NCBI GenBank assembly: GCA_003278365.1
Contig: QCFS01000005.1
Span: 1-64,000, forward strand
DNA length: 64,000 nucleotides
Origin: Prochlorococcus sp. AG-363-M17
GTDB taxonomy: Bacteria > Cyanobacteriota > Cyanobacteriia > PCC-6307 > Cyanobiaceae
Direction of reading: 5' to 3'
Below the pieces are notes generated by a model. It searched no databases. It was not told the origin of the DNA and saw only the letters and a program-made list of their open reading frames with translations. This document shows positions 3,031-61,628 of the stretch, in pieces; position 1 is the stretch's first letter, and each line of letters opens with the position of its first letter. Both the position numbers and the translations under genes were made by a program.

Positions 3031-3042
3031 GAGTTTTCACTA

Positions 3043-3113
3043 AGAACAGCACATATCTCCGCAGACCTCTTCAATTAAGTCGTGTCGTAGGCATCGTTGT
3101 AGTTGTCGAGCTC
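3043..3113 (-). pseudogene. Fragment of small acidic gene A
   Basis: About 70 nt match the middle of gene A at 4312-4500 (the part encoding DAYDLIEEVCGDMCCS), with a short insertion near 3080-3090 that breaks the frame. Neither start nor end is kept. It lies directly downstream of the stop of the metallo-beta-lactamase gene, so it is a relic of the dispersed cassette. Confidence 0.7.
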
Positions 3114-4016
3114 CTAAATCTGTCCAGTTGAGGTTGTTCTTGCTGCATGACGCAATGTTTGTTTGAGCGCCTCGTTCCATTGTCCTGGCATGAATTGATG
3201 GGCATATCCATGCCCAGGTAGTAACCAGTGAACTTCTAGATCGAGAAGCCTTTCTACTGATTTCAATTGCTCGGTCCAATTCCACCAGCAATAATTTTTT
3301 GACGCAACTATTACTGACTTTTTGGGATCCCACCAAAGGTGATCTCCACTAAACAAAATTTGTTGTTGATCACCAAGTACAGCGACCATTGATCCTTTTG
3401 TATGCCCAGGCGTTGGAATTAACTTAAGGCTCTTTCGAAGAGCGAGAGCACCAAGTCCTATGACTTGCTTTTCTGCTTCAGGCGCTGAATCTGCATCATC
3501 TTGGTGAATCCACCTTTCACAGTTAAAAGCTTTGGTCCAATTTGCGTGATCTGCTACATCATCTCGATGAGTTAGAACTATTTGGTTAATACCACCCATC
3601 TTTTTGATTTGTTTGGCAAGTGGAGCACTCCAGCGAGGGGAGTCGATAAGAACGTTGCCTTCTGCACCATGAATTAGCCAACTGCTGGCGCCAAAACTAC
3701 GTTTTGAACTCCAACCGCAGTAATAGACATCTCCTGCAGGATGTTTGGTAACCAGTATTGGAAAAACATCAGCAGGTAAGTTTGCAGTCAAGTTTTTTGG
3801 AGCACCGATTGCTGCGACAGGACAATCGATCAGGGCCAAAAGAGCCTTCCCAACTTCTTGTTGTCCATTTGGCTGAGTGTGAACGTAAGAACTGCTCCCA
3901 GTTGGTGCAAAGTGTTCCGGGGCTATGTGCCAGCAACTACCACAATCAATGCAGCTTGAGTCCACAAAAAATGGACCAGGTGAATTATTTTTGAGACGAT
4001 CTTTTATTCGAGCCAT
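3114..4016 (-). CDS. 4Fe-4S ferredoxin / metallo-beta-lactamase fold fusion protein
   Basis: The 300-residue protein has two parts. The N-terminal ~80 residues resemble a small ferredoxin (CIDCGSC at about 22-28, later IDCPVAAIG), enough for one Fe-S cluster. The rest is a metallo-beta-lactamase hydrolase with THRDDVADH, PTPGHTKGS, LFSGDHLWW and LLPGHG, which supply the metal-binding His/Asp set. The fusion suggests a redox-linked hydrolase; relatives occur in cyanobacteria but the substrate is unknown. It is a single gene. A cassette fragment lies at its 3' end. Confidence 0.88.
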   Translation of the reverse strand: MARIKDRLKNNSPGPFFVDSSCIDCGSCWHIAPEHFAPTGSSSYVHTQPNGQQEVGKALLALIDCPVAAIGAPKNLTANLPADVFPILVTKHPAGDVYYCGWSSKRSFGASSWLIHGAEGNVLIDSPRWSAPLAKQIKKMGGINQIVLTHRDDVADHANWTKAFNCERWIHQDDADSAPEAEKQVIGLGALALRKSLKLIPTPGHTKGSMVAVLGDQQQILFSGDHLWWDPKKSVIVASKNYCWWNWTEQLKSVERLLDLEVHWLLPGHGYAHQFMPGQWNEALKQTLRHAARTTSTGQI

Positions 4017-4311: not shown

Positions 4312-4500
4312 TCAAGGTTCAATAAGACCATCTTTCACTTCAACAATTTCATAGTAAGGATGGTCTTCGTAGTCAGCATCTGAGCAGCACATATCTCCGC
4401 AGACCTCCTCAATTAAGTCATAGGCATCGTCGTAGTTGTCGAAATCCTGAGAGGTGATCTCGTCTTCTTCTCCATCGTGTCTGGTGATGCGATATGTCAT
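4312..4500 (-). CDS. Cassette gene A: small acidic Cys-rich protein (62 residues)
   Basis: The most complete copy of gene A. It begins MTYRITRHDGEEDEITSQDF and has the core DDAYDLIEEVCGDMCCSDAD followed by YEDHPYYEIVEVKD. Homologous copies lie at 16546-16716 and 58978-59151 (both intact), 11018-11191 (start lost) and 3043-3113 (fragment). Conserved features are the R-H-D/E start, the FDNYDDAYDL helix, the CGDMCCSDADY motif and a PYYEI end. Three clustered Cys plus many Asp/Glu could bind metal, but this is a guess. Gene B lies 12 nt upstream and the leader repeat before that, so it seems to be the last gene of a three-part cassette. Confidence 0.75.
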   Translation of the reverse strand: MTYRITRHDGEEDEITSQDFDNYDDAYDLIEEVCGDMCCSDADYEDHPYYEIVEVKDGLIEP

Positions 4501-4512
4501 TCCTTTCTTTTC

Positions 4513-4635
4513 TTAGACCTCCCAGTCGACACCATCGTCATCTTCGTCGTACTCATAATTCAGTAGAGATTTCTCACCCTTTTCTTTTTTCTCTTCTGAA
4601 TTGGTAGGAGGTATTTCTTCGTCCATTTTCACCAT
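4513..4635 (-). CDS. Cassette gene B: very acidic small protein (40 residues)
   Basis: The ORF reads MVKMDEEIPPTNSEEKKEKG and ends SLLNYEYDEDDDGVDWEV. The start at 4635 is chosen because the same MVKM start and tail recur at 14377-14499; a longer in-frame ORF extends upstream through the repeat to 4833 but is not shared. The tail Y-E-Y-D-E-D-D-D-G-V-D-W-E is the most conserved part of the family. The protein is probably disordered and negatively charged. It is followed by gene A and preceded by repeat R2. Confidence 0.65.
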   Translation of the reverse strand: MVKMDEEIPPTNSEEKKEKGEKSLLNYEYDEDDDGVDWEV

Positions 4636-4644
4636 TTCTCTATT

Positions 4645-4775
4645 TTGAATAAAGTTTGAATAGAAATTCATTATTCGCTGAGATCGGTTGCTATCAACTA
4701 AAGGGAACTTTTCATTGGCCAGTAGTTGATCTCCTTTTGTGCCATGGATTCTCAGCGATATTGCGATGTGTGGTT
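4645..4775 (-). repeat. Interspersed repeat copy R2 (leader of an intact A/B cassette)
   Basis: The stem is CGCTGAGA (4757-4750) pairing with TCTCAGCG (4684-4677). The enclosed micro-ORF at 4745-4698 reads MAQKEINYWPMKSSL and ends in TAG. It is 15 codons long like R1 and R4 but differs at several residues and in the stop codon. Gene B starts about 40 nt downstream of the stem. Confidence 0.75.
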
Positions 4776-4935
4776 GGAACCTGCTCAGGAAGGTCCCTTG
4801 TCTTGTTTCCATTATCGCTGAGCTTATGGTCATTAGCTTTGAGAAATGCTTTTGTCAGGGGAGCCTGAAGAGATGCTCGTTGGCAAGGAAATGTTCTGCA
4901 AAATCTGTCAATCTGACTTGAATTGCACTTTTTTG

Positions 4936-5594: not shown

Positions 5595-5698
5595 AGGACT
5601 CCTTCCCTGACCAAATAGAAAACAGCAAAATGTGTGGATAGTGTGTGAATGGATTTCTGAAATTCCTTTTGATCCATTCTCACCACTCAAATGCACTT

Positions 5699-5832
5699 GT
5701 TCATTAGCCAGTAGTTGATTTCAGTTATATCAAGTGATTTGGGCGAAAAAGGGCGGTTTGAATAAAGTTTGAATAGAAATTTCTGATTCGCTGAGATCGC
5801 TTGCTATCAAATTAAGGGAACTTTTCATTGGT
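5699..5832 (-). repeat. Interspersed repeat copy R3 (permuted arrangement)
   Basis: The plus strand reads attagccagtagttgatttc, then gggcgaaaaagggcggtttg, then the gaataaagtttgaatag tract, then CGCTGAGATC (5790-5799) and ttttcattgg. Compared with R1 the blocks are permuted, as if two copies were joined. The minus strand keeps an EINYWLM-encoding core but with a different end (NKCI, stop). No gene B or A follows. Confidence 0.65.
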
Positions 5833-7228: not shown

Positions 7229-10200
7229 CTAGAAATGCCAATCGATATGGAATTGATATGAATTCGTATAAAAAGAATTATCTGCTTCTTCATGTTCGTA
7301 GGCCAGATTGGCAGAGAAGCGATTGTCGCTATAAAACTCAATCCCAAGTGCTGTATTCCAAAAATCCCGAGCGGCTTGCTCAATTGTTAATCGATAGTTT
7401 TGAGAATCGCCAACGTAGTTCATGTCAACATTTGAATCATCTGTGAAATCATGGCCATATTCCACTTTCCCGAAAGGCCTTAATTTAAAATTCTTAAAGG
7501 GGATTTCATAACCAAGATCAAGGCCAAAAGAAATCATCTTTCGATTGAGTCTTTGCTCTTTGAATTTCAATGCAAGGTTACTTCCAGATTCAGAAAATTC
7601 TTCGAATTGAATATGCGCGGCTTCTGCTCTTCCATATGGTGTGATTTGAAAATCACCTTTAGAAAAGGGTTCTCCAAGCAGCGCAATAGACCCGAAGATC
7701 ATGTTTACGTCCCGATTCCCTTTATGTGTTATTGAGTTATCTATTCTTCTTGTATTCATTTTCATTTGTCCTACACCAATCTGAGCTTCTATAGGAAGGA
7801 AATCTTCAGGTTGATCAGCTGAATAAATTGAAAGGCTGTAGTTGTCTGATTCAAGTCGACTGCCTGCACTCCCAACATCAACAGCATCATGGCCAAACGT
7901 AAAAGCGATTCCGAACAAACCATTCTCTTTGTATGGTTTATCGATCCCTAAGGTGAAAGCTGTACTTTCTGAATCCTGATTAGCAGAAACTGATGCACCA
8001 TCCGAATTGCCAATAGTCAACTTTCCATTAGTCCACATCGACCATTTACCTATCAAGTTACCTCCTTTTGGATTGAGATTGATTGCTCCCGTTTTATTAC
8101 GAACTTCTGCTATAGCAATATCTAAAGAGTCTTCTTGCAAGTTGTAAGCAACCTCATCAGTTTGATCCACAAGCCTTTCATTTGACCAATTTGTCTTTGC
8201 CCAGTTAGTTAGGTCTTCAACGCCAAGATCTTTCAAGCCCTTTGAAGTTCCATTCAGAGCTTTTTCAATTAATGGATTCGAAAAGGAAACCTTGATTCCT
8301 TGATGCGATTTTTCGTCTGAAGCCTGATTTCTTCTGATCCAGTCAAAACGTCTATTTACTGCATAGAGACTTGAGTTGCTGAAACGAATTGCTGCATTAG
8401 TCCAGGCTTCTGCAAGCCCCACAACATCTGCTTTTAGCGTTGGGTCTGAATGTGGATCTAAGGGGATATGATTATTAATTACACCATTCGAAGTCGATGA
8501 AGATTGATCTGTAAATGTAAAAGAAAAAGATAAATAATAGGTAGTAATTTCTCCTGAGGAAGGAGCCTCATCTTGATCTTGGATTTCTTCTACTCCTCCT
8601 CCTAATTGAGATGTATATGTTGTAGCTTCTGAAGTTATTTCAGTGCTTTCAAATGAATAGGTAGCGGGTGGATCCACCTCAATTGTATAGGTTCCATTAG
8701 ATGCAGAGTCGGCCTTAAATATAAAGCTATAAGACCCATCTGATCCAGTTTTTTGTGTGTTTTCACCACCACTACTGTCTAGCCAATCATTGCTAACAAG
8801 CTCACCATTATATAAAAGCTTTACTGTCGCACCTGATACGGGCGCACGAGTATTTGAATCATAAATTATCCCTGCAGGGTCAATCAGTAAACCATCCATC
8901 TCCTGGTAATCTTCGCAGGCCGTACTAATAACAATATTTCTTATCCAGCGTCCTGTTTGATAAGACCCACTACTCTTTGTTAGAACACTTTTAGCAATCC
9001 TAGAATCACCTGAAGGTTTTACAAACTCGACTTTATAGGTGCCAGACTCAGTAGGAAAATATTGATATCTTCCAGTTCCATCTGTCTGTACAGTGGTGAT
9101 ATAAGTATTTCCTAAATATATTTTCACTTCTGCACTTGCTACACCCAGACCTCCACGATTTACTGTTGTTTTTCCAGAGATTCTTCCACAAGCTGATGCC
9201 TCGACTGTGGTAAATGAATATGTATCTTTAGAACTAATACCAGTAAATGAGTTCGGTGATGTTGCTGTATCAACAATCGCTCCAGAATCTATTTCTAAAT
9301 AGTATTTTGTATCAGCTTCTACAATCGCCTCTCCATCACTATTGACTAGATTGATTGTTAGCTCATCATATGAGACAGAGATATCTGTATTGTTAGAAAC
9401 ATCAAAGGCTTGAATTAAGCTGTCGTCAGAATATTTCTTTAGTTTAATTTCACCAGTTCCAAATGCTATCTCTTCAGTAAACAGAATTATTAATTTTGGA
9501 TTGGCAATTTCCAATTTCTCGGATCCATTTTCTGGAGAGTATGCTTTTACTTCTGGTGCTGTACTATCAACTGTTCTTGTTGAAAAATTCAACATTGCTT
9601 GATCAGTAATACCTTTATAACTGTTTCCAGAGGTTGATGTAATCACATTATTTTTTATGTATATCCAGTAATCCTTATTGGCTTGGAGCGCATTACTTAA
9701 GTCAACCTCTACAGATCTTCGATCAGCGCTAAATATAACTTTATTAGAGTTTATTTTGTATCTTTTGACATCTTTCCACTTATTTGCTTCTCTCAAGGCA
9801 ATATAACCTTTATTTGCTTTAACATCTCTATCAAAATTCAAAGTTAACTTGGCTGTTGTAAGAACCCCAAACTGTCCATCTGATGGGGTTGAAGATGACA
9901 ATACTGGCCCTGCTGCGCAACCGTTGCTCCCCCAGCAAGGGTGCTTATTGGCTGATAAATTTGGCGCAAATAATCTTGGAGGTTGCTTCCTTTTTTGCAC
10001 ATTCCAGCTCGTCAAATCTTGGTTAAATGCAGGTGCATTTTGGAATGTTCTTTTAAAGCCAGTTGCTGAAGATGTATCCCAGCTAGTGATGTCTTGATTA
10101 AAAGCCTTTGCGCCTCGAAAAGTTTGATTAAAGCTTCTTGTATTCGCAGTAGACCATCCAGAAATGTTTCCATTAAACGCCTTTGCGCCTTTAAACATAG

Positions 10201-10897
10201 AATTCATATTTGTAACTTCTCCTACATCCCAGCTGTTTAGATTTTGGTTAAATTTATTAGCTCTATGAAACATTCTAGATGTATTAGTTACCTTGCTCAT
10301 ATCCCAATCATTTATATCTTGATTAAATCTGACCGCTCTTTCAAACATTCTTTGCATATTCGTTACGTTTGACACGTTCCAATCTCCTATGTCTTGGTTA
10401 AACCTATGGGCTGCTCTAAACATAGAATGCATATTTGTCGCTTTCGCAGTATTCCAATACCCTATATCTGCATTGAACCTTTTTTTGTTATTAAATAAAC
10501 TTGAAAAGTCTGTTATGTTTCCTGTGTAAATGTTTCTTGAGGAATCACCAAAAGTATAATTAATGCCATCTTTAGTGATAGTATAATCAGTGGAATTGTT
10601 GGCAGCAGCTGCAATTGCATCGACTAATATTTGCCTATTAACTATTAGTTTTCCGTTGCAATCACCTGAACTTCCGACTACAGCATTGGAAAGACTTGTG
10701 ACTTCTGTATTGCATGGACTTGCGAGAGCCTTGCTTGGTGCAAAAATTGATAGCAAAAAACAAGATCTAATCAAATATTTGCGAAGAAATACTCCATTGG
10801 CTCTATCTAAAATTCCTTGATTCTTTATTCCTTTTATTACTAACATAAAGGCAAATGTGCTTCTTTTGTGAAACACACCTAAGCTCCTTCCCTTCAA
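7229..10897 (-). CDS. Large surface autotransporter with BspA/DUF285 repeats and Ig-like domains (1222 residues)
   Basis: A long basic N-terminus leads to a signal-like segment near residues 40-60 (RSCFLLSIFAPSKALA). Residues about 120-310 hold seven DUF285/BspA-type repeats of the kind F-N-x-D-I-x-x-W-x-x-x-x-x-T-x-M-x-x-M-F. Two Big_5 Ig-like domains follow (about 330-450 and 455-575), then two CnaB/carboxypeptidase-regulatory-like domains (about 575-660 and 665-785). The last ~260 residues form an autotransporter-type beta-barrel ending in aromatic F (HIDWHF). This fits a type V secreted adhesin displayed on the cell surface. Start uncertain: Met18 is an alternative. The gene is isolated and much larger than its neighbours, suggesting niche-specific gain. 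Confidence 0.88.
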   Translation of the reverse strand: MKGRSLGVFHKRSTFAFMLVIKGIKNQGILDRANGVFLRKYLIRSCFLLSIFAPSKALASPCNTEVTSLSNAVVGSSGDCNGKLIVNRQILVDAIAAAANNSTDYTITKDGINYTFGDSSRNIYTGNITDFSSLFNNKKRFNADIGYWNTAKATNMHSMFRAAHRFNQDIGDWNVSNVTNMQRMFERAVRFNQDINDWDMSKVTNTSRMFHRANKFNQNLNSWDVGEVTNMNSMFKGAKAFNGNISGWSTANTRSFNQTFRGAKAFNQDITSWDTSSATGFKRTFQNAPAFNQDLTSWNVQKRKQPPRLFAPNLSANKHPCWGSNGCAAGPVLSSSTPSDGQFGVLTTAKLTLNFDRDVKANKGYIALREANKWKDVKRYKINSNKVIFSADRRSVEVDLSNALQANKDYWIYIKNNVITSTSGNSYKGITDQAMLNFSTRTVDSTAPEVKAYSPENGSEKLEIANPKLIILFTEEIAFGTGEIKLKKYSDDSLIQAFDVSNNTDISVSYDELTINLVNSDGEAIVEADTKYYLEIDSGAIVDTATSPNSFTGISSKDTYSFTTVEASACGRISGKTTVNRGGLGVASAEVKIYLGNTYITTVQTDGTGRYQYFPTESGTYKVEFVKPSGDSRIAKSVLTKSSGSYQTGRWIRNIVISTACEDYQEMDGLLIDPAGIIYDSNTRAPVSGATVKLLYNGELVSNDWLDSSGGENTQKTGSDGSYSFIFKADSASNGTYTIEVDPPATYSFESTEITSEATTYTSQLGGGVEEIQDQDEAPSSGEITTYYLSFSFTFTDQSSSTSNGVINNHIPLDPHSDPTLKADVVGLAEAWTNAAIRFSNSSLYAVNRRFDWIRRNQASDEKSHQGIKVSFSNPLIEKALNGTSKGLKDLGVEDLTNWAKTNWSNERLVDQTDEVAYNLQEDSLDIAIAEVRNKTGAINLNPKGGNLIGKWSMWTNGKLTIGNSDGASVSANQDSESTAFTLGIDKPYKENGLFGIAFTFGHDAVDVGSAGSRLESDNYSLSIYSADQPEDFLPIEAQIGVGQMKMNTRRIDNSITHKGNRDVNMIFGSIALLGEPFSKGDFQITPYGRAEAAHIQFEEFSESGSNLALKFKEQRLNRKMISFGLDLGYEIPFKNFKLRPFGKVEYGHDFTDDSNVDMNYVGDSQNYRLTIEQAARDFWNTALGIEFYSDNRFSANLAYEHEEADNSFYTNSYQFHIDWHF

Positions 10898-11017
10898 TTT
10901 AAATGCTTGGCCTTTATACCCTATTTTCTGACCTTGCAGAATATAGAAACAGACGCTTTGTTAATTGCATTAACTCGGCACCCTTCCTTACGGCCGATCA
11001 GGCTCCGCCATTTCTAT

Positions 11018-11318
11018 TTAATCTTTGATTGCAACAACTTCATAGTGAGGACGGTCTTTGTAGTCAGCATCTGAGAAGCACATTTCTCCGTAGATCTCCT
11101 CGAGTAAGTCATAGGTATCGTCGTAGTTATCGAAGCTCTGAGAGGTAAGGTTTTCCTCTTTCCCAACGTGTCTGGTGATGAGATACCTTATCCCCTCGTT
11201 CTCTTGGATCTCCCAGTTGATGCCATCGTCATCTTCGTCGTATTTAGAATTCAGTAGAGAGTTCTCCTCCTTTTCTTTATTCTCTTCTTTATTGCTGAGT
11301 GGCTTTTCTTATTCCATT
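11018..11318 (-). pseudogene. Degenerate A/B cassette: B with early stop fused to start-less A
   Basis: From 11318, gene B starts ATG GAA TAA, so it stops at codon 3. The frame then continues without its normal stop (tail YDEDDDGINWEI) straight into gene A, whose ATG has become ATA (IRYLITRHVGKEENLTSQ). The rest of A is open to a TAA at 11020-11018 and reads DDTYDLLEEIYGEMCFSDAD. Two Cys of the A core are replaced. It is either dead or a new B-A fusion; the early stop favours decay. Confidence 0.75.
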
Positions 11319-11331
11319 TTTCCTGTTTCCC

Positions 11332-11480
11332 TAGTATGGATAAAGTTTTGATGGAAATTCCTGATTTGCTGAGATCGTTTGTTATCAGCTAAAGGGAAGT
11401 TTTCATTAGCCAGTAACTAGGTTCCTGTTGTGCCATGGACTCTCAGCGAAAATGGGTGGTTTGAATAGAGTTTGGATAGG
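11332..11480 (-). repeat. Interspersed repeat copy R4
   Basis: Near-identical in layout to R1. CGCTGAGA (11448-11441) pairs with TCTCAGC (11376-11370). The micro-ORF at 11436-11389 reads MAQQEPSYWLMKTSL and stops with TAG. Relative to R1 it shows a synonymous Ser change (AGC to AGT) and a different stop codon, as expected if the peptide matters. The degenerate B/A pair at 11018-11318 lies downstream. Confidence 0.75.
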
Positions 11481-11549
11481 TAATTGATCTCTAGGCTTTC
11501 TAGTTCTTTTTATTCTGGCGTTTTTCAATATAGAGGTGAATCGCACTTT

Positions 11550-11819: not shown

Positions 11820-11957
11820 CAAGTTTGAATAAAGTTTGAATAGAGATTCTTGATTCGCTGAGATCGGTTGCTATCACCTAAAGGGAACTACTCATTAGCC
11901 AGTAGTTGATTTCAGTGATGTCAATGGGTTTGGGCGAAAATGGATAGTTTGAATGAA
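11820..11957 (-). repeat. Interspersed repeat copy R5
   Basis: The plus strand has the gaataaagtttgaatag tract, CGCTGAGATC at 11857-11866, cattagccagtagttgat, and a tail gggcgaaaatggatagtttg like R3. The minus strand keeps the micro-ORF core EINYWLMSSSL ending in TAG, but without an ATG at the usual place. No B or A follows. Confidence 0.65.
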
Positions 11958-12124
11958 ACCTTATAGTGACTTCTTTTCCTTTACTGTATCCAACCTGTTT
12001 TTGAAGGGAATAAGAATACAGATCGCATCTCACCGAAATCATTCACCCATCCTCAATAGATCTCCTCTAGTTGAGAGTTCTACTGATAGCAAAGAATTTG
12101 GCTGAAGTATTTTCAGTGCAAGAT

Positions 12125-13105: not shown

Positions 13106-13260
13106 CTCCTTAAAACTTTAAAAAGCTCGAACAAGGTTCCAGCAGGATTTATTGATTTTTTTCTAATCCATTGGTATCAATAGTTTTTAACTGTTCGTCA
13201 GCCAGTAGCTTGGCTCCTGTCGTGCCATGGGATCTCAGCGATATTGCGATATGTGGATGG
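13106..13260 (-). repeat. Interspersed repeat copy R6 (half copy with extended flank)
   Basis: Contains gccagtagcttggctcctgt, gccatggg and GATCTCAGCG at 13231-13240, but lacks the opposite stem arm. The minus strand micro-ORF at 13228-13187 reads MARQEPSYWLTNS and stops with TAA. The preceding ~80 bp (aaagctcgaacaagg... to ttggtatcaat) match the same flank of R7, so R6 and R7 share a longer unit. The 255-bp element E1 lies between them. Confidence 0.65.
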
Positions 13261-13274
13261 TGGTGAGGACTAGG

Positions 13275-13560: not shown

Positions 13561-13785
13561 GGTTTCAAAATGGTTAAAAGTTCGAACAGGAACAGAGTTT
13601 AGTGATTTCCTCTAATCCCTTGGCATCAATGGGATATGACTTTTTGTTAGCCAGTAGTTGATTTCCTGTTGTGTGATGGGGGATCTCAGCGATAACGGGT
13701 GGCTTGAATGAAGTTTGGATCGAAATTCTTGATTCGCTGAGATTGGTTGATATCACTCAACGGGAAGTTTTCATTAGCCAATACG
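13561..13785 (-). repeat. Interspersed repeat copy R7 (extended, permuted copy)
   Basis: On the plus strand the blocks run: extended flank shared with R6, tttgttagccagtagttgat, GATCTCAGCG (13682-13691), the gaatgaagtttggat tract, CGCTGAGATT (13735-13744) and gttttcattagcca. Here the stem arms face each other across about 43 bp, the opposite order to R1. The micro-ORF start ATG is lost (ATC). It lies directly upstream of the cupin gene. Confidence 0.65.
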
Positions 13786-14376: not shown

Positions 14377-14499
14377 TTAGGTTTCCCAGTCGACACCATC
14401 ATCATCTTCGTCGTATTCATAATTGAGTAGAGAGTTCTCATCCTTTTCTTTCTTCTCTTCTTTATTGATAAGAGGCTTGTCTTCTTCCATTTTTACCAT
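14377..14499 (-). CDS. Cassette gene B (40 residues), without gene A
   Basis: The ORF reads MVKMEEDKPLINKEEKKEKD and ends SLLNYEYDEDDDGVDWET. Its length and tail match the copy at 4513-4635 almost exactly. Repeat R8 lies directly upstream (start within about 10 nt). No gene A follows; the cupin gene lies beyond on the other strand. Intact reading frame despite loss of A suggests B is under selection or recently copied. Confidence 0.7.
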   Translation of the reverse strand: MVKMEEDKPLINKEEKKEKDENSLLNYEYDEDDDGVDWET

Positions 14500-14504
14500 T
14501 TCTC

Positions 14505-14625
14505 TAGTTTGGATAGGAATTTCTGATTTACTAAGATCGGTTGCTATCACTAAACGGGAGGGTTTCCTTGGCCAGAAGGAGATGTGATTCATATCAAGCG
14601 ATTTATGTGAATTGCTGGTGTGAAC
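14505..14625 (-). repeat. Interspersed repeat copy R8 (eroded)
   Basis: Keeps ctagtttggataggaatttc, actaagatcggttgctatca and ggccagaagg, but the CGCTGAGATC arm has become tactaagatc and the micro-ORF is not open. It leads into the gene B copy at 14499. Confidence 0.55.
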
Positions 14626-14637
14626 AGAAGCTGCTTC

Positions 14638-15330
14638 TCAAGGTTCACTCTTGTTTCCATTCTCAGTCAGTTGATCAATAGTTGCCTTCTCTCCAATGAA
14701 CTGATTTAGATCCTCTGGTGGTAGCCAACTTCTATTAGCCCCATTTTTAAAGGCAAAGCGTAGGAATTCCGCTGCGTATTGGACCCGGAGTCGTCGGCTT
14801 GCTGAGCCAGGCTCTCCTCCATGACGCTCAACAAGGGTTTTTAAAACCGAGTAGCCATTTGATACAGAACTTTCGCCAGTAAGGATAAGTAATGTGCGGG
14901 CAATAGGAGTTCGGTAGTTTCGGTTCCACACTCGTGACCCTTTCTTTCCATTACTTGTTTTATGTGATTTGAATTTGCTAGCTAGTTGTTCCCAGTTGAG
15001 TGCACCAATGAATCCAGATTCGTTCTTTTGTTTTACTAGCTCATACGCTTCGGCTAAACCCTTTCCTTGAGATTTCATTATTAGTGAAATGTCTGTGGAG
15101 ATTTGCAATATCCATCCTGCACTTGTTCCGACCCATGGAACAAAATCTGGATCGCTCTTGGCTTTTGGGCCAAGAACAATGCTGGTTCGGTTGCCATCCT
15201 CAAAACGAACTGTCAGCTGAACCTTTTGAACAAGACCTTTTCCTATGCCGCGGACCATCCATCCCTCGCCACATTCCTGTCGAATCTTCTCGCGCAGGGA
15301 GGAAATCCATTTCGAAGGCTTATTGGGCAT
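14638..15330 (-). CDS. Truncated site-specific integrase (N-terminal part only)
   Basis: The 230-residue protein begins MPNKPSKWISSLREKIRQEC and includes LNWEQLASKFKSHK and RHGGEPGSASRRLRVQYAAE, then WLPPEDLNQFIGEK. These match the N-terminal arm and core-binding part of integrases common in Prochlorococcus islands. The frame stops just where the catalytic domain (R...HxxR...Y) should start, so it cannot recombine DNA. It marks past mobile-element activity in this repeat-rich region. Upstream, a 37-residue ORF and a 16-codon ORF overlap or nearly touch its start. Confidence 0.7.
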   Translation of the reverse strand: MPNKPSKWISSLREKIRQECGEGWMVRGIGKGLVQKVQLTVRFEDGNRTSIVLGPKAKSDPDFVPWVGTSAGWILQISTDISLIMKSQGKGLAEAYELVKQKNESGFIGALNWEQLASKFKSHKTSNGKKGSRVWNRNYRTPIARTLLILTGESSVSNGYSVLKTLVERHGGEPGSASRRLRVQYAAEFLRFAFKNGANRSWLPPEDLNQFIGEKATIDQLTENGNKSEP

Positions 15331-15369: not shown

Positions 15370-15483
15370 TCACCCATCCAACCTTTCTGCATAGTCTCTT
15401 AAAATCTCGGCCATTTTGTGTGGTGGTATTTCCTGCTGATATTCCTTGCATAAATCAAAAAACTTGCCTAGAAACTCTCTCAT
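15370..15483 (-). CDS. Small conserved 37-residue protein, copy 1
   Basis: The ORF reads MREFLGKFFDLCKEYQQEIP, then PHKMAEILRDYAERLDG. A second copy of the same length at 48810-48923 (MKEFLDKFFDLCREYQQEIP) differs by conservative changes, which supports real coding. Its stop overlaps a following ATG (TGATG) that leads into the truncated integrase. A diverged relative is seen within 61124-61372. Function unknown. Confidence 0.6.
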   Translation of the reverse strand: MREFLGKFFDLCKEYQQEIPPHKMAEILRDYAERLDG

Positions 15484-15667
15484 AGGATTTGGTCTCTTTT
15501 CTTTAGTCATTTAGAGCCGAAAAAGTGTGAATATTCTGTAAATGAAGCTAGCTCAATAAGGGTTCATGGTCTTGTTTCTATTCTCCCTCAGTTGAGGTCC
15601 TTCCAAAATGTGGCTCAAGGGCTCCTAAGGGAGAAGCTGGCTATTGCGTTGATTGTTAATGCAAACA

Positions 15668-16545: not shown

Positions 16546-16716
16546 CTAGAAGCCTTTAATGATTTCATGGTAATTAGGGTCCTTGTAGGTAGCATTCGAG
16601 CAGCACGTATCTCCGTAGATCTCCTCTGCTAAGTCATAGGCATCGTAGTAGTTGCGGAACTCCTGAGAAGTGTTGTCGTCGTCTTCTCTATCGTGTCTGG
16701 CGATGAGATATTTCAT
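16546..16716 (-). CDS. Cassette gene A (56 residues), upstream of the kinase
   Basis: The ORF reads MKYLIARHDREDDDNTSQEF, then RNYYDAYDLAEEIYGDTCCS and NATYKDPNYHEIIKGF. It keeps the family start, the DAYDL helix and two of the three core Cys. It is intact from ATG to TAG. Gene B lies 12 nt upstream and the kinase 2 nt downstream. Confidence 0.7.
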   Translation of the reverse strand: MKYLIARHDREDDDNTSQEFRNYYDAYDLAEEIYGDTCCSNATYKDPNYHEIIKGF

Positions 16717-16728
16717 TCCTAAGTTCTC

Positions 16729-16818
16729 TTAGGTCTCCAAGTCGATATCATTGTCATCCTCGCCATATTCATAATTCAGCAGAGAGCTTTTATCCTTTTC
16801 TTTTGTCTCTTCTTCCAT
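16729..16818 (-). CDS. Cassette gene B, short form (29 residues)
   Basis: The ORF reads MEEETKEKDKSSLLNYEYGE and ends DDNDIDLET. It lacks the middle KKEK stretch and starts at the second Met of the family, but keeps the LLNYEY...D tail. It lies between repeat R9 and gene A. Confidence 0.55.
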   Translation of the reverse strand: MEEETKEKDKSSLLNYEYGEDDNDIDLET

Positions 16819-16829
16819 TTTTCAGCATT

Positions 16830-16952
16830 TCTCTAGCTTGGATGGAAATTCCTGATTCGCTGAGATCGGTTGAAATTTTTCAAAATCATTGGCCAGTAGT
16901 TAATTTCAGTTTTACCAGGGGTTTTGGGTGTGAATGGGCGGTTTGGGTCACC
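16830..16952 (-). repeat. Interspersed repeat copy R9
   Basis: Has ctagcttggatggaaattcc, CGCTGAGATC (16858-16867), attggccagtagttaatttc and gggtgtgaatgggcggtttg. The minus strand reads KTEINYWPMILKN without a stop at the usual place. It leads the B/A pair at 16546-16818. Confidence 0.65.
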
Positions 16953-17003
16953 CCTAAATCTCTGAGTTTTTGCATGTTCCCATTCTCCCTAAATTGAATA
17001 ACA

Positions 17004-17384: not shown

Positions 17385-17861
17385 TACTAGGTAGACATGG
17401 TCTCTTATATATATCTATTCTTTTTAGATATTGCAAGGAAGAGGTCGTACCTACGATAGTCATCATCATAATTTTTTTTATTACCACCATTTTTCAAGTT
17501 TGATTGAAAATCCTGATATTGCCGAGAATGCTTGCTATTACTCAAAGGAAAGCTTCCATTGGCTAATTAAAAGAGATATCAGTCTGGGCGGACCCGCTGG
17601 GGAGTCTTGCGTAATCTCAATGAAAGATCAAAGGGAGCCGGTGTACAGATTTCCAGTCCTTCCAAGGTTTTATAGCACCTTTCGATTCCCCATTCTCGCA
17701 TTACTATTATTGCTTGATCAACTTTTTTGGGAGAAATCATACGTGCTCGATCCATTTTTATAAGAGTAACTAAACTTTAGTTTGATGCTTAATTGGAGTT
17801 TAGCAATGAGTAATTTTCAGTAGCCATTAATCTAGTTTGAATGGAGCTTGTACCGTAGTTT
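17385..17861. other. Intergenic stretch with an eroded repeat copy R10
   Basis: About 17492-17575 resembles the repeat family (tttcaagtttgattgaaaat, gccgagaatgcttgctatta, ctcaaaggaaagcttccatt) but the stem arms are broken. The rest shows no convincing gene. Confidence 0.45.
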
Positions 17862-18168: not shown

Positions 18169-18801
18169 TTAGTTCACTAGAGCAACCCAAGAGAATGCTG
18201 AGCCTATTCCTATCCAGACTCCAGCAGTTAAGAGTCGTCCATTGGTCCCTAGCCAATTAATGCTTCTTTGAGACACTGCGGCCACTAGTAAGAGTAAAGC
18301 CATTTGGGAAAGGAGAAGACCTGAAAAATAACCTATGAGAGGAGTTGGTTCAGCTCCAACAATTGTGCTTCCAAGCAAGTAGCCGTGTAAAGCAAACATT
18401 GGTAAGAGACATTTTGGACTCAAACGATTCAGAATAATTAAGCCTTCTATTGCCAAAGATAAAGAGACAAGTGCTTCTGCCCAGGGAGCTAGTAAATCAG
18501 GCAAGGGCTGCAATTGTACTAATGCACTTCCTGCTAAACCAACAGCCAAAAGAGGAAAAATCCATTTTTTGGCTCTTTTTTGTCCTACAAGGGCGATGCC
18601 TAGCATAAAAAGAAGATGATCAGGACCAAGCAATGGATGCCCGATGCCGCTAAGGAGAGCTTGCCAGCCTGACAGTTCAGAACTCTCGCCCATTCCAAAG
18701 GGATGATGAGCCAAGGCTGGAGCAGTTGAAAAAAGTGAGTAAAGAAATAATGGAACTAAAACTGCAAGAAAATGCTTACGTTCCAAGTAGGGAAACGTCA
18801 T
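18169..18801 (-). CDS. HupE/UreJ-family membrane protein, probable cobalt transporter
   Basis: The 210-residue protein has a signal-like N-terminus ending PALAHHPFGM, then about six hydrophobic segments with the family motif SGIGHPLLGPDHLLFMLGIA (His and Asp for metal binding). HupE/UreJ proteins carry nickel or cobalt. The cobalamin riboswitch directly upstream (18815-18960) points to cobalt uptake for B12 synthesis rather than nickel. The gene is monocistronic as far as visible. Confidence 0.88.
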   Translation of the reverse strand: MTFPYLERKHFLAVLVPLFLYSLFSTAPALAHHPFGMGESSELSGWQALLSGIGHPLLGPDHLLFMLGIALVGQKRAKKWIFPLLAVGLAGSALVQLQPLPDLLAPWAEALVSLSLAIEGLIILNRLSPKCLLPMFALHGYLLGSTIVGAEPTPLIGYFSGLLLSQMALLLLVAAVSQRSINWLGTNGRLLTAGVWIGIGSAFSWVALVN

Positions 18802-18814
18802 AGGTCGATCTTCG

Positions 18815-18960
18815 TCGAATTGTTAGACAAGGCGGGCTTTCTGACTGATATCGATTAATGACGATACTTTACAGCTGCGGGACAGCAGCGGATTTTCACC
18901 GCTTTTCCCCGTTACCTCCAATGGCTGATCTCCATTGGAACCTCCTAACTAATTTACGCA
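18815..18960 (-). promoter_or_regulatory. Cobalamin (B12) riboswitch
   Basis: Read on the minus strand the segment holds aagcggtgaaaatccgctgc, then tgtcccgcagctgtaaagta and the B12-box-like cagtcagaaagcccgcc (about 18828-18849). The order GGTGAAAATCC, CCCGCAGCTGTAA, CAGTCAGAAxxCCCGCC is the cobalamin riboswitch core. It ends close to the start of the HupE gene, so translational or short-range control by adenosylcobalamin is likely. Confidence 0.92.
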
Positions 18961-19029: not shown

Positions 19030-19172
19030 GAACAGGAGTTTGGGCAAATCTCGATGGAGCGCTGATATCGGTTGACATCATTATTCAAAGGGAAGTTTTT
19101 ATTGGCCAATAGTTAATTTCAGTTCTACCTGGGGTTCTAGGCGGAGCTGGGCGGTTTGGGTGAAGTTTGAGA
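19030..19172 (-). repeat. Interspersed repeat copy R11
   Basis: Has gagcgctgatatcggttgac, caaagggaagtttttattgg, ccaatagttaatttcagttc and gagctgggcggtttgggtga. The minus strand keeps the micro-ORF core TEINYWPIKTSL ending in TGA. Stem arms are imperfect. It lies between the riboswitch and the cupin pseudogene. Confidence 0.6.
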
Positions 19173-19197
19173 TCATCCTTTATTTCGGATTTTTGCT

Positions 19198-48813: not shown

Positions 48814-48923
48814 CCAACTAGCCTATCCGCATAGTCTCTCAAAACTTCTGTCCGTTTCGGTGGAGGTATTTCTTGTTGATATTCCCTACATAAATCAAAG
48901 AACTTATCTAGAAATTCCTTCAT
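48810..48923 (-). CDS. Small conserved 37-residue protein, copy 2
   Basis: The ORF reads MKEFLDKFFDLCREYQQEIP, then PPKRTEVLRDYADRLVG. It has exactly the length of the copy at 15370-15483 and differs mainly by conservative changes (K/R, D/E, V/I). Its TGA overlaps the ATG of the peptidase gene, so both are translationally coupled. A helical, amphipathic peptide; function unknown. Confidence 0.65.
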   Translation of the reverse strand: MKEFLDKFFDLCREYQQEIPPPKRTEVLRDYADRLVG

Positions 48924-49309
48924 AGGAGTTTGCTGCCTGCCTTGAGTCGTTTAGGGCCTCATCAGAGTTAACAGAATGTGAGCTTATTCATAGATTCCTT
49001 TTAATGTGTTTCCCCTGCCTTTAAGGCAATTTTTATGTGCATACTAGTTACTTGCTGTCATGCTTAGAATTATGTGGCAACTAAAATATCTCACTATTGC
49101 AATCAATCAATAGATATAAGTACTTTGATTGGGGTGATTTTTGGTGTCTAGGTATATACGATCTAGTGCTATTTGGATAAGTGGATATAGAAGATCCAAA
49201 GAGTTGATGGAAACTAGGATTATATATTTAGTTTATTGCCTTTCTATGCTCTTATTCTTTTTATAATTTGCTATACCACTATGGTTTTGATGAATTCACG
49301 TTGTTGATT
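48924..49309. other. Intergenic stretch with no supported feature
   Basis: About 385 bp of AT-rich DNA between two minus-strand genes. No ORF, repeat or clear terminator was recognised. Confidence 0.5.
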
Positions 49310-57518: not shown

Positions 57519-58442
57519 ATGTTGATATTGGGTTTGTTCAAGGAGTTTTTCCCCTTACTTGCACTCGGCTATTTAATTGGGCGCTTTAAACCAGGACTTT
57601 CATCTCTAATAGCAGTACCTCTTATTAACTTCGGAGTACCAATCAGCTTGATGGGGCTTCTGCTGAAGAGTGGCATGGATTGGCACTTTTTTGAGGCTTT
57701 TCTTATGGCTTTATTTGCTATTGGATTGCTCATAACTTTAATGAGGATTCTCCCGAATATGAGAAGTCTTTTTGGGAGTAGATGCTTGCTATTGGGAAGT
57801 GTTTTTGGTAATTCAGGCTACTTCGGGATACCTATAGCATTGGCACTACTCCCAAGTGAGGCACTCAGCTTCAGCATTGGTTATGACCTTGGTGCCACGT
57901 TGCTTGTGTGGGCCATAGGTCCAATTATCTTCACTAGCACCTCTAGTGAAGTACTCCAAAAAGGTACTTGGGGAAGTCTTTTAAATGCGCTTACTCGAAG
58001 TCCTGCAACAAAGGGATTGCTTGGAGCGTTATTAATTAGGGCGACTCCATGGAGTGATCAAATCACCTCGACACTTTGGATTCCATCAAAAATTGTGATT
58101 GTTCTGGCATTAATGATTATTGGAATACGTTTAGGTTCTTTTTCTCCTCCAAATCATCCAAACCGAGAGGGCATTTGTTTTGACCTTCAGTCCAGCTTGC
58201 TTGTTAAACTACTTATTTTCCCTGCATTAATGTTGGTTCTTACAAAGGCATTTAGCTTGCCAATTTTGATGCGTGATGCGCTTGTTTTGCAGGCTGCAAC
58301 ACCTACTGCTATCTCTGTGTTGTTATTGGCTGAAGTAAGTGGGAAGGAGCAACAGGTTGCTGCTTCCTTAGTTGCTTCTAGTACTTTGGCTGCATTAATT
58401 ACAGTCCCAATTTGGTCTTTAGTTCTTAGAGTACTTTTCTGA
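57519..58442 (+). CDS. AEC-family (auxin efflux carrier-like) transporter (307 residues)
   Basis: About ten membrane helices, with the AEC features PLINFGVPISLMGLLL, LGSVFGNSGYFGIPIALALL and ALVLQAATPTAISVLLLAEV. These proteins export organic anions or metabolites. It follows the oxygenase by 61 nt on the same strand and may be co-transcribed. Confidence 0.9.
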   Translation: MLILGLFKEFFPLLALGYLIGRFKPGLSSLIAVPLINFGVPISLMGLLLKSGMDWHFFEAFLMALFAIGLLITLMRILPNMRSLFGSRCLLLGSVFGNSGYFGIPIALALLPSEALSFSIGYDLGATLLVWAIGPIIFTSTSSEVLQKGTWGSLLNALTRSPATKGLLGALLIRATPWSDQITSTLWIPSKIVIVLALMIIGIRLGSFSPPNHPNREGICFDLQSSLLVKLLIFPALMLVLTKAFSLPILMRDALVLQAATPTAISVLLLAEVSGKEQQVAASLVASSTLAALITVPIWSLVLRVLF

Positions 58443-58977: not shown

Positions 58978-59151
58978 TCAGTTCTTTAATTCAATGATTT
59001 CATAGTAAGGACGGTCTTCATAGTCAGCATCAGAGCAGCACATATCCCCGTAGATTTCTTCTAGCAAGTCATAGGCATCGTCAAAGTTATCGAAAATCTG
59101 AGATGTAATCTCATCCTGCTCTCCATCATGTCGGGCAATGTGAAATTTCAT
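58978..59151 (-). CDS. Cassette gene A (57 residues), distant copy
   Basis: The ORF reads MKFHIARHDGEQDEITSQIF, then DNFDDAYDLLEEIYGDMCCS and DADYEDRPYYEIIELKN. It keeps the whole A core. No gene B or leader repeat is seen upstream, unlike the copies at 4.5 and 16.6 kb, so A can exist alone. DUF1543 follows after 12 nt. Confidence 0.75.
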   Translation of the reverse strand: MKFHIARHDGEQDEITSQIFDNFDDAYDLLEEIYGDMCCSDADYEDRPYYEIIELKN

Positions 59152-61123: not shown

Positions 61124-61372
61124 TTAGCCTATATGCTTAGCGCCTGAAACATATTTCCATTTTTTGTAGCGGTGTTTTTGTTGATTTTCTGTAGATACAT
61201 TAAAGAACTTGCCTAGAAACCCCTCCCAAGGATTTTGTGCTTGGTTTAAGTCATTGAGCGATTCTTTGGGATTAGGTAAAAGAGCACAAAAGCTATTTAG
61301 CTTTCCTGATGAGTTTGTATACGGATCATCGAGGGTGGTTATGGCGACTAAAAAACCTACTAACCAATACAT
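61124..61372 (-). CDS. Hypothetical protein containing a diverged 37-residue-family segment (82 residues)
   Basis: The C-terminal half (WEGFLGKFFNVSTENQQKHR) resembles the 37-residue proteins at 15370-15483 and 48810-48923 (EFLGKFFDLCKEYQQE). The N-terminal part starts with a hydrophobic helix (MYWLVGFLVAITTLD). It may be a real membrane-linked form or a relic fused to a chance start. Confidence 0.4.
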   Translation of the reverse strand: MYWLVGFLVAITTLDDPYTNSSGKLNSFCALLPNPKESLNDLNQAQNPWEGFLGKFFNVSTENQQKHRYKKWKYVSGAKHIG

Positions 61373-61534
61373 AGGAAGACCTAGAGAAGAGTGTTCAGTA
61401 ATTAGATCAATACTTTATTTCAGCTAAGTCCAGCAATGCTCAAGTTGACATGGCTTACCTGACCCTTCAGCACTGTGCCAGTTGCTTTTGAGGCCATCCC
61501 CTTCTGTAAAATCACCTTGCTTAGGTAATGATAA

Positions 61535-61628
61535 ATAACGTGAGGAGTAGAGATCCTCCGTGCAGTGGAAACAAGGAAACACTTGCTCATGATCTCAAGA
61601 AAACCCGCTTTTAGCGGGTTTTCTAGTA
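61535..61628 (+). ncRNA. Yfr2-family-like small RNA
   Basis: The segment gtgcagtggaaacaaggaaa followed by cacttgctc carries two GGAAACA-type loops, the hallmark of cyanobacterial Yfr2-5 RNAs. An upstream stem (gagga...tcctc) and a strong terminator complete the expected layout. A TAATGATAAAT-like -10 element lies near 61527-61537. Identity rests on the motif and architecture as I recall them. Confidence 0.65.
61598..61628 (+). terminator. Terminator of the Yfr2-like RNA
   Basis: A perfect 12-bp stem, AGAAAACCCGCT (61598-61609) and AGCGGGTTTTCT (61613-61624), with loop ttt. Confidence 0.85.

Follow-up and report, generated by a model that had tools for sequence, protein, structure and literature searches.

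The window that we analysed is a stretch of 64,000 nucleotides from Prochlorococcus sp. AG-363-M17, and it carries on its minus strand two small genes that follow one another behind a repeated sequence. Gene B (4513-4635) encodes an acidic protein of 40 residues, and gene A (4312-4500), whose ORF and family alignment identify it as an intact array copy, a protein of 62 residues. The repeat ahead of them lies at 4644-4781 (112 bits against the repeat profile), with its core TACTGGCCAATGAA counted from 4724, and B starts about 10 bp past it. The original prediction had read these parts as a dispersed three-part cassette made of a structured leader with a micro-ORF, B and A, and the ORFs and coordinates that it gave are correct. 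The further copies that it listed are also present. The same order recurs at 16952-16546, where a repeat copy (16834-16960, 75 bits) precedes a truncated B (16735-16815) and an open, drifting A (16546-16716). A decayed set is found at 11480-11018, with a repeat copy at 11337-11481 (111 bits) ahead of a B (11207-11320) and an A (11015-11188) that both contain in-frame stop codons. The repeat with B alone occupies 14625-14377, namely a copy at 14505-14629 (71 bits) and a second intact B at 14377-14499, and A alone stands at 58978-59151. All of these features lie on the minus strand.

The list of repeats was real but too short, as a profile search finds about 13 copies in the window, between 1996 and 19182 and all on the minus strand. 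They include the copy at 1996-2151 (141 bits, core at 2076), which is followed by a remnant of B, two overlapping copies 124 bp apart (5635-5831), single copies at 11825-11972 (118 bits) and 13128-13262 (77 bits), two copies 127 bp apart (13577-13784), a weak copy at 17495-17566 (28 bits) and a last one at 19036-19182 (77 bits). Just upstream of the copy at 14505, on the same strand, is an ORF of 230 residues (14638-15330) with homologues at 92% and 89% identity in the arrays of genomes G003 and G017; neither Pfam nor PHROGs gave any support for reading it as half an integrase. A separate repeat of 60 bp, distinct from the one discussed here, has three copies (15434-15493, 48874-48933 and 61179-61238), and its family overlaps a minus-strand ORF of 46 residues at 15370-15510.

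The repeat is about 155 bp long, and at most loci its micro-ORF reads MTEINYWLMKS followed by a stop codon, or a close variant of it. At a few loci the frame continues (...YWLMKSEP...WDGIRNYQARN) into an EVE-domain protein (PF01878, 4e-52), which means that the supposed leader peptide is encoded by the opening codons of a gene for an EVE-domain protein. The repeat is found before many unrelated genes on either strand, directly before integrases and at EVE itself, and a cassette of three fixed parts is not supported on this ground. These observations bear directly on the possibility that the repeat is a structured 5'-UTR with a leader peptide, which would control small genes like B and A and would have been spread by duplication. 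The short distance to B would suit such a regulatory element, as would the hairpin TTCGCTGAGATC...GATCTCAGCGAA, which is favoured over shuffled sequences in some copies (z of -2.3, -2.8 and -2.0). However, the hairpin is not favoured at 14505 (z +0.8) or at 16834 (z +0.2), the repeat has no match in Rfam, and so neither a kept structure nor a known RNA family marks it as an RNA leader or riboswitch. With the ORF being the start of EVE and the genes behind the repeat being unrelated, we regard a regulatory leader as very improbable. Of the mobile or regulatory system that had been proposed, it is the mobile half that stands, and we will refer to the repeat as att. A promoter role of att would nevertheless be compatible with integration.

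The position of the att copies is best seen in closed genomes, where truncated copies lie upstream of a single intact EVE and on its strand. Among the loci that were fetched, the profile assigns 179 copies to the EVE strand and 5 to the opposite one, and places 169 upstream of or at EVE with none downstream. A whole-genome search, which is independent of the profile search and unbiased by locus, returned 91 matches in four closed low-light genomes, and all but two marginal ones fall in the interval between murD and EVE. Closed low-light Prochlorococcus genomes have 14-35 matches each, almost only in this interval, while a single match, EVE itself, was obtained in an HL genome and 0-1 in Synechococcus. 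In Synechococcus, five genomes have murD and EVE next to each other, no more than about 0.8 kb apart. The 13 Prochlorococcus genomes in which the locus is closed or on a single contig have the two genes on one strand but 23-171 kb apart; the distance is 23-49 kb for genus g56, 38-51 kb for genus g18 and 55-171 kb for the remaining low-light genomes. The downstream flank of EVE is conserved throughout. The largest island, in G003, amounts to 171 kb of a 1.94 Mb genome, or about 9%. The ISL5 island of high-light strains may be this same murD-EVE interval. In G054, att copies also occur outside the interval (C1, 58-94 kb and 580 kb) together with seven copies of A, which could reflect secondary sites or rearrangement.

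The repeat score drops with the distance from EVE in all eight arrays, significantly in five of them, and such a decay of copies away from EVE is what serial insertion at EVE predicts. As for the window, it has 32 genes in common with the G003 interval, where they are spread in a shuffled order with a rank correlation of 0.49 and 3 of 31 neighbours preserved, and it is therefore very probably part of the same murD-EVE interval. The intact EVE of this genome lies on contig C24.

Next to att, and always at the same end, stands a candidate enzyme. In each of the eight genomes with a close homologue, a gene for a protein of 517 residues starts 9-39 bp after att, at the island end. The protein matches a PHROG integrase family (3.2e-14), on which its assignment to the tyrosine recombinases is based, and Pfam PF00589 at 2e-4, below the curated cut-off. 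Of the catalytic set R-K-H-R-H-Y, the homologues all keep the Lys, the second Arg and the Tyr; Ser stands in place of the first Arg (TGMSPEE) and Tyr in place of the first His, and the second His position holds Asn or His. From its sequence, we consider it the putative tyrosine recombinase of these elements. Neither phage records nor IMG/VR contain a relative, and the elements thus do not resemble known phages. In the genome of the window, whose assembly is 74% complete, neither a match to this integrase nor murD was found. The integrase element of G003 spans 20.7 kb up to EVE.

The copy of the repeat at EVE consists of the upstream half and the core only, and the downstream half is common to most other copies. 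Both halves carry 11-bp direct repeats, which come in several sequence types, and 7 of the 8 integrase elements carry the same type at their left and right ends. The exact match between ends is 22 bp in G003 and G042, 23 in G019, 21 in G172 and 20 in G002; in G079 and G067 it is 11 bp within the stretch compared, and in G017 the ends are unmatched. Integrases that are 95-98% alike (G003, G042 and G019) go with one repeat type and the other elements with other types, and since the type tracks integrase similarity, recognition of the 11-bp repeats by the enzyme is suggested. Upstream of EVE (10-50 bp), a perfect 9-mer at an 11-bp period is present in 15 of 18 Prochlorococcus genomes, the HL genome G096 among them, and absent from both Synechococcus genomes compared, against a background of 0.3%. 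The N-terminus of EVE varies with the incoming half (MTEIN, MAQQEP, MADKNIS and others). The start of the target gene is repeated directly at both island ends, with the EVE reading frame kept.

The same matching can be followed beyond the integrase elements. Over 147 adjacent att pairs, from which copies less than 200 bp apart were left out because they trivially share sequence, the end match is 8.0 against 6.3 by permutation (p<5e-5), and the excess also holds within genomes. Most of these pairs (113 of 147) score below 10, so that elements must often have been altered by deletion, decay or homologous exchange. It is at this point that local duplication has to be weighed, in which the promoter region and the start of EVE would be copied by unequal homologous exchange and the array would grow and be shuffled without any dedicated recombinase. 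The unmatched ends of most adjacent copies would fit with it, and so would the tandem copies 124-127 bp apart and the decayed B-A copies of the window, which resemble exchange products, as well as some cassettes that are inverted between genomes. Against it stand an integrase beside att in eight of eight cases, matching ends that are specific to each element, an EVE copy that lacks the downstream half, and foreign cargo as large as a complete Hma set. We therefore hold local duplication, as the origin of the array, to be quite improbable, slightly less so than a regulatory leader.

How A and B fit in this array can be seen from their distribution. It had been supposed that neither belongs to a named family, and indeed Pfam, NCBIfam, PHROGs and a PDB search contain nothing for them; A has no match in phage records and a single weak, chance-like one in IMG/VR. 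Both nonetheless have homologues beyond the local repeats, A in 114 of the 201 genomes of the family (Cyanobiaceae) and B, more narrowly, in 35. Among 292 genomes sampled from the whole phylum, A is confined to this family, being usually single-copy in marine Synechococcus and often multi-copy in low-light Prochlorococcus. Its matches within its own genome (E 2.5e-39 to 5e-17) rule out chance. In the alignment, which bears on a possible metal binding by A, Cys38-Cys39-Ser is nearly invariant and the first Cys of CGDMCC is not, and an AlphaFold model (pLDDT 75) predicts a strand-helix-strand arrangement with no significant fold match. The claim that both genes are under selection is borne out for the families, with a median dN/dS of 0.10 for A (85 pairs), which indicates purifying selection, and of 0.22 for B, where selection is less strong. 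It does not extend to every copy: the A at 16546-16716 differs from the one at 4312 with a dN of 0.25 and a dS of 0.24 (dN/dS about 1), and is thus drifting; the copy at 11018 is broken.

The A at 58978-59151 (minus strand, recovered by genome search) has no att and no internal stop codon. It adjoins a homologue of an AEC-type transporter (57519-58442), and this pairing is also found at other picocyanobacterial loci, including in Synechococcus, which from the sequences makes it the likely core copy. A is thus a core picocyanobacterial gene that elements carry along as cargo, and B an element-associated gene placed at the element end. Indeed, B and A are the first genes past att in elements of the TATYCAAAC type. 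One such element in G042 is 1.8 kb long, has near-matching ends and no integrase, and holds four more small genes besides B and A, all in one direction. That of the window runs from about 4724, in the att copy that forms its left end, to about 2076, in the copy that forms its right end, that is, about 2.65 kb, with ends that match with a score of 12 over 2648 bp. Besides B and A, it encloses a minus-strand ORF at 3114-4016 with a ferredoxin and metallo-beta-lactamase fold (Pfam Fer4_13 and Lactamase_B), a homologue of which lies elsewhere in the G003 interval, a fragment of A at 3037-3084 (minus strand) that had been overlooked, and a plus-strand ORF at 2230-2562 with the Pfam family MUG113/T5orf172 (GIY-YIG-like). 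By the gene content of these elements, B-A is carried as cargo, at the left end of small elements that have no integrase and would need one acting in trans. That B is transcribed from att, and that the cargo copies of A raise the dose of the core gene, is a tentative and rather doubtful proposal.

Taken together, we think it very likely that the leader repeat is the att of integrative elements that target the 5' end of EVE, and that serial insertion built the island. The evidence for this in the sequences covers the site, its orientation, the uninterrupted locus of Synechococcus, the adjacency of the integrase, the matching ends and the decay with distance. The tyrosine recombinase, encoded just inside the left end, would join the element site of about 150 bp to the codons of EVE that specify Y-W-L-M-K, and the crossover, or the junction of moving elements, is predicted within TACTGGCTAATGAA. 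The incoming element would then supply the promoter and the first 5-8 codons or so of EVE, and the old 5' end would be left upstream as a truncated copy, which is what we believe the micro-ORF to be. By repeated integration, older elements would be pushed off EVE, giving an array of one orientation between murD and EVE. The paired 11-bp direct repeats are the predicted arm-binding sites of the integrase and would differ in sequence with the element type. Many elements have no integrase and were presumably moved in trans, the B-A cassette among them. Whether murD-EVE is moreover a general platform of gene capture, similar to a super-integron but operated by conventional integrases, we judge to be an even call; several integrase types with different end-repeat specificities would there share one target codon stretch and mobilise cassettes such as B-A in trans, the EVE promoter and N-terminus would be swapped at each arrival, and expression would be tied to the latest element.

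The cargo of these islands is diverse. The EVE-proximal integrase element of G003 contains the complete Hma anti-phage set (HmaA, HmaB and HmaC; C1:1571485-1581234, L147 9486-19235), and just upstream of these genes lies a strong repeat half in the opposite orientation (C1:1571155-1571247, plus strand), perhaps re-used as a promoter. By sequence inspection, ABC transporter (urea-transport) and urease-like genes are found between repeat copies in G006 (C1:1499733-1510136, L145 and L146). In the window, an autotransporter of 1222 residues with DUF285 repeats (7229-10897, minus strand) is carried as cargo and has a homologue 75% identical in the G003 array. A cobalamin riboswitch (18814-18958, minus strand, E 3e-13) lies upstream of a HupE/UreJ-type transporter gene (18169-18801), and a Cyano-1 small RNA (Rfam RF01701, E 1.3e-6) lies at 61534-61600 on the plus strand.

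Much of the gene content that varies in Prochlorococcus is located in genomic islands, and the route by which genes enter them is often unknown. For the murD-EVE island, the proposed mechanism is explicit and testable, as it names a target, a site, an integrase, element ends and a direction of growth, and the matching ends make it possible to delimit single elements, including the one that carries the Hma defence set. It also gives a place to two unnamed families of small proteins.

We can now compare this array with the systems that it resembles. Chromosomal super-integrons likewise have a long array of sites in one orientation and shuffled genes that are mostly unknown. A true integron with attC-like single-stranded sites would agree with these features, with the small genes of no known function, with arrays of about 100-170 kb and with the inverted repeat of some sites. 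Here, by contrast, there is no fixed integrase platform, since the integrase travels inside elements beside its own att; the direct repeats are paired as in attP arms and no attC hairpin is conserved; and the elements are up to 20 kb long, have genes on both strands and carry their own integrase. An integron is for these reasons the least probable of the explanations considered, and extremely so. The integration at EVE that we favour is closer to other islands. In dusA islands, an integrase targets the 5' end of dusA, and the island provides a new 5' end while the old one stays as a remnant (PMC4482086). Those islands and prophages share with ours a tyrosine-type integrase (putative in ours) that targets a conserved protein gene at its 5' end, and the remnant left behind, a likeness in mechanism; the target here is an EVE-domain gene, many insertions follow one another in one array, the paired 11-bp ends are specific to each element, and some elements lack an integrase. 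The tycheposons of Prochlorococcus, as described in PMC10872708, are cargo-carrying elements with a tyrosine recombinase that are anchored at tRNA genes. Like our elements, they occur in this organism, carry cargo, have a recombinase of the tyrosine type (putative in ours) and build variable islands, but the tRNA anchor sets them apart, as EVE is the anchor in all of our arrays. Several target remnants within one island are also found in additive islands that are anchored at tRNA genes and have repeated tRNA ends, namely fGI-2 of Methylopumilus (PMC10872708) and the tRNA-Met island of MIT9313 (PMC2784084); in contrast to these, the present target is a protein gene, there are 14-35 matches per closed low-light genome, and both an integrase and matching ends are identified. 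A limited literature search found no paper that describes a long array inserted at a protein gene with matching ends that differ between elements, and none linking EVE domains to integration in Prochlorococcus. We regard the EVE array as a variant of a known island mechanism, and what is new in it is the length of the array, the EVE target and the end repeats that are specific to each element.
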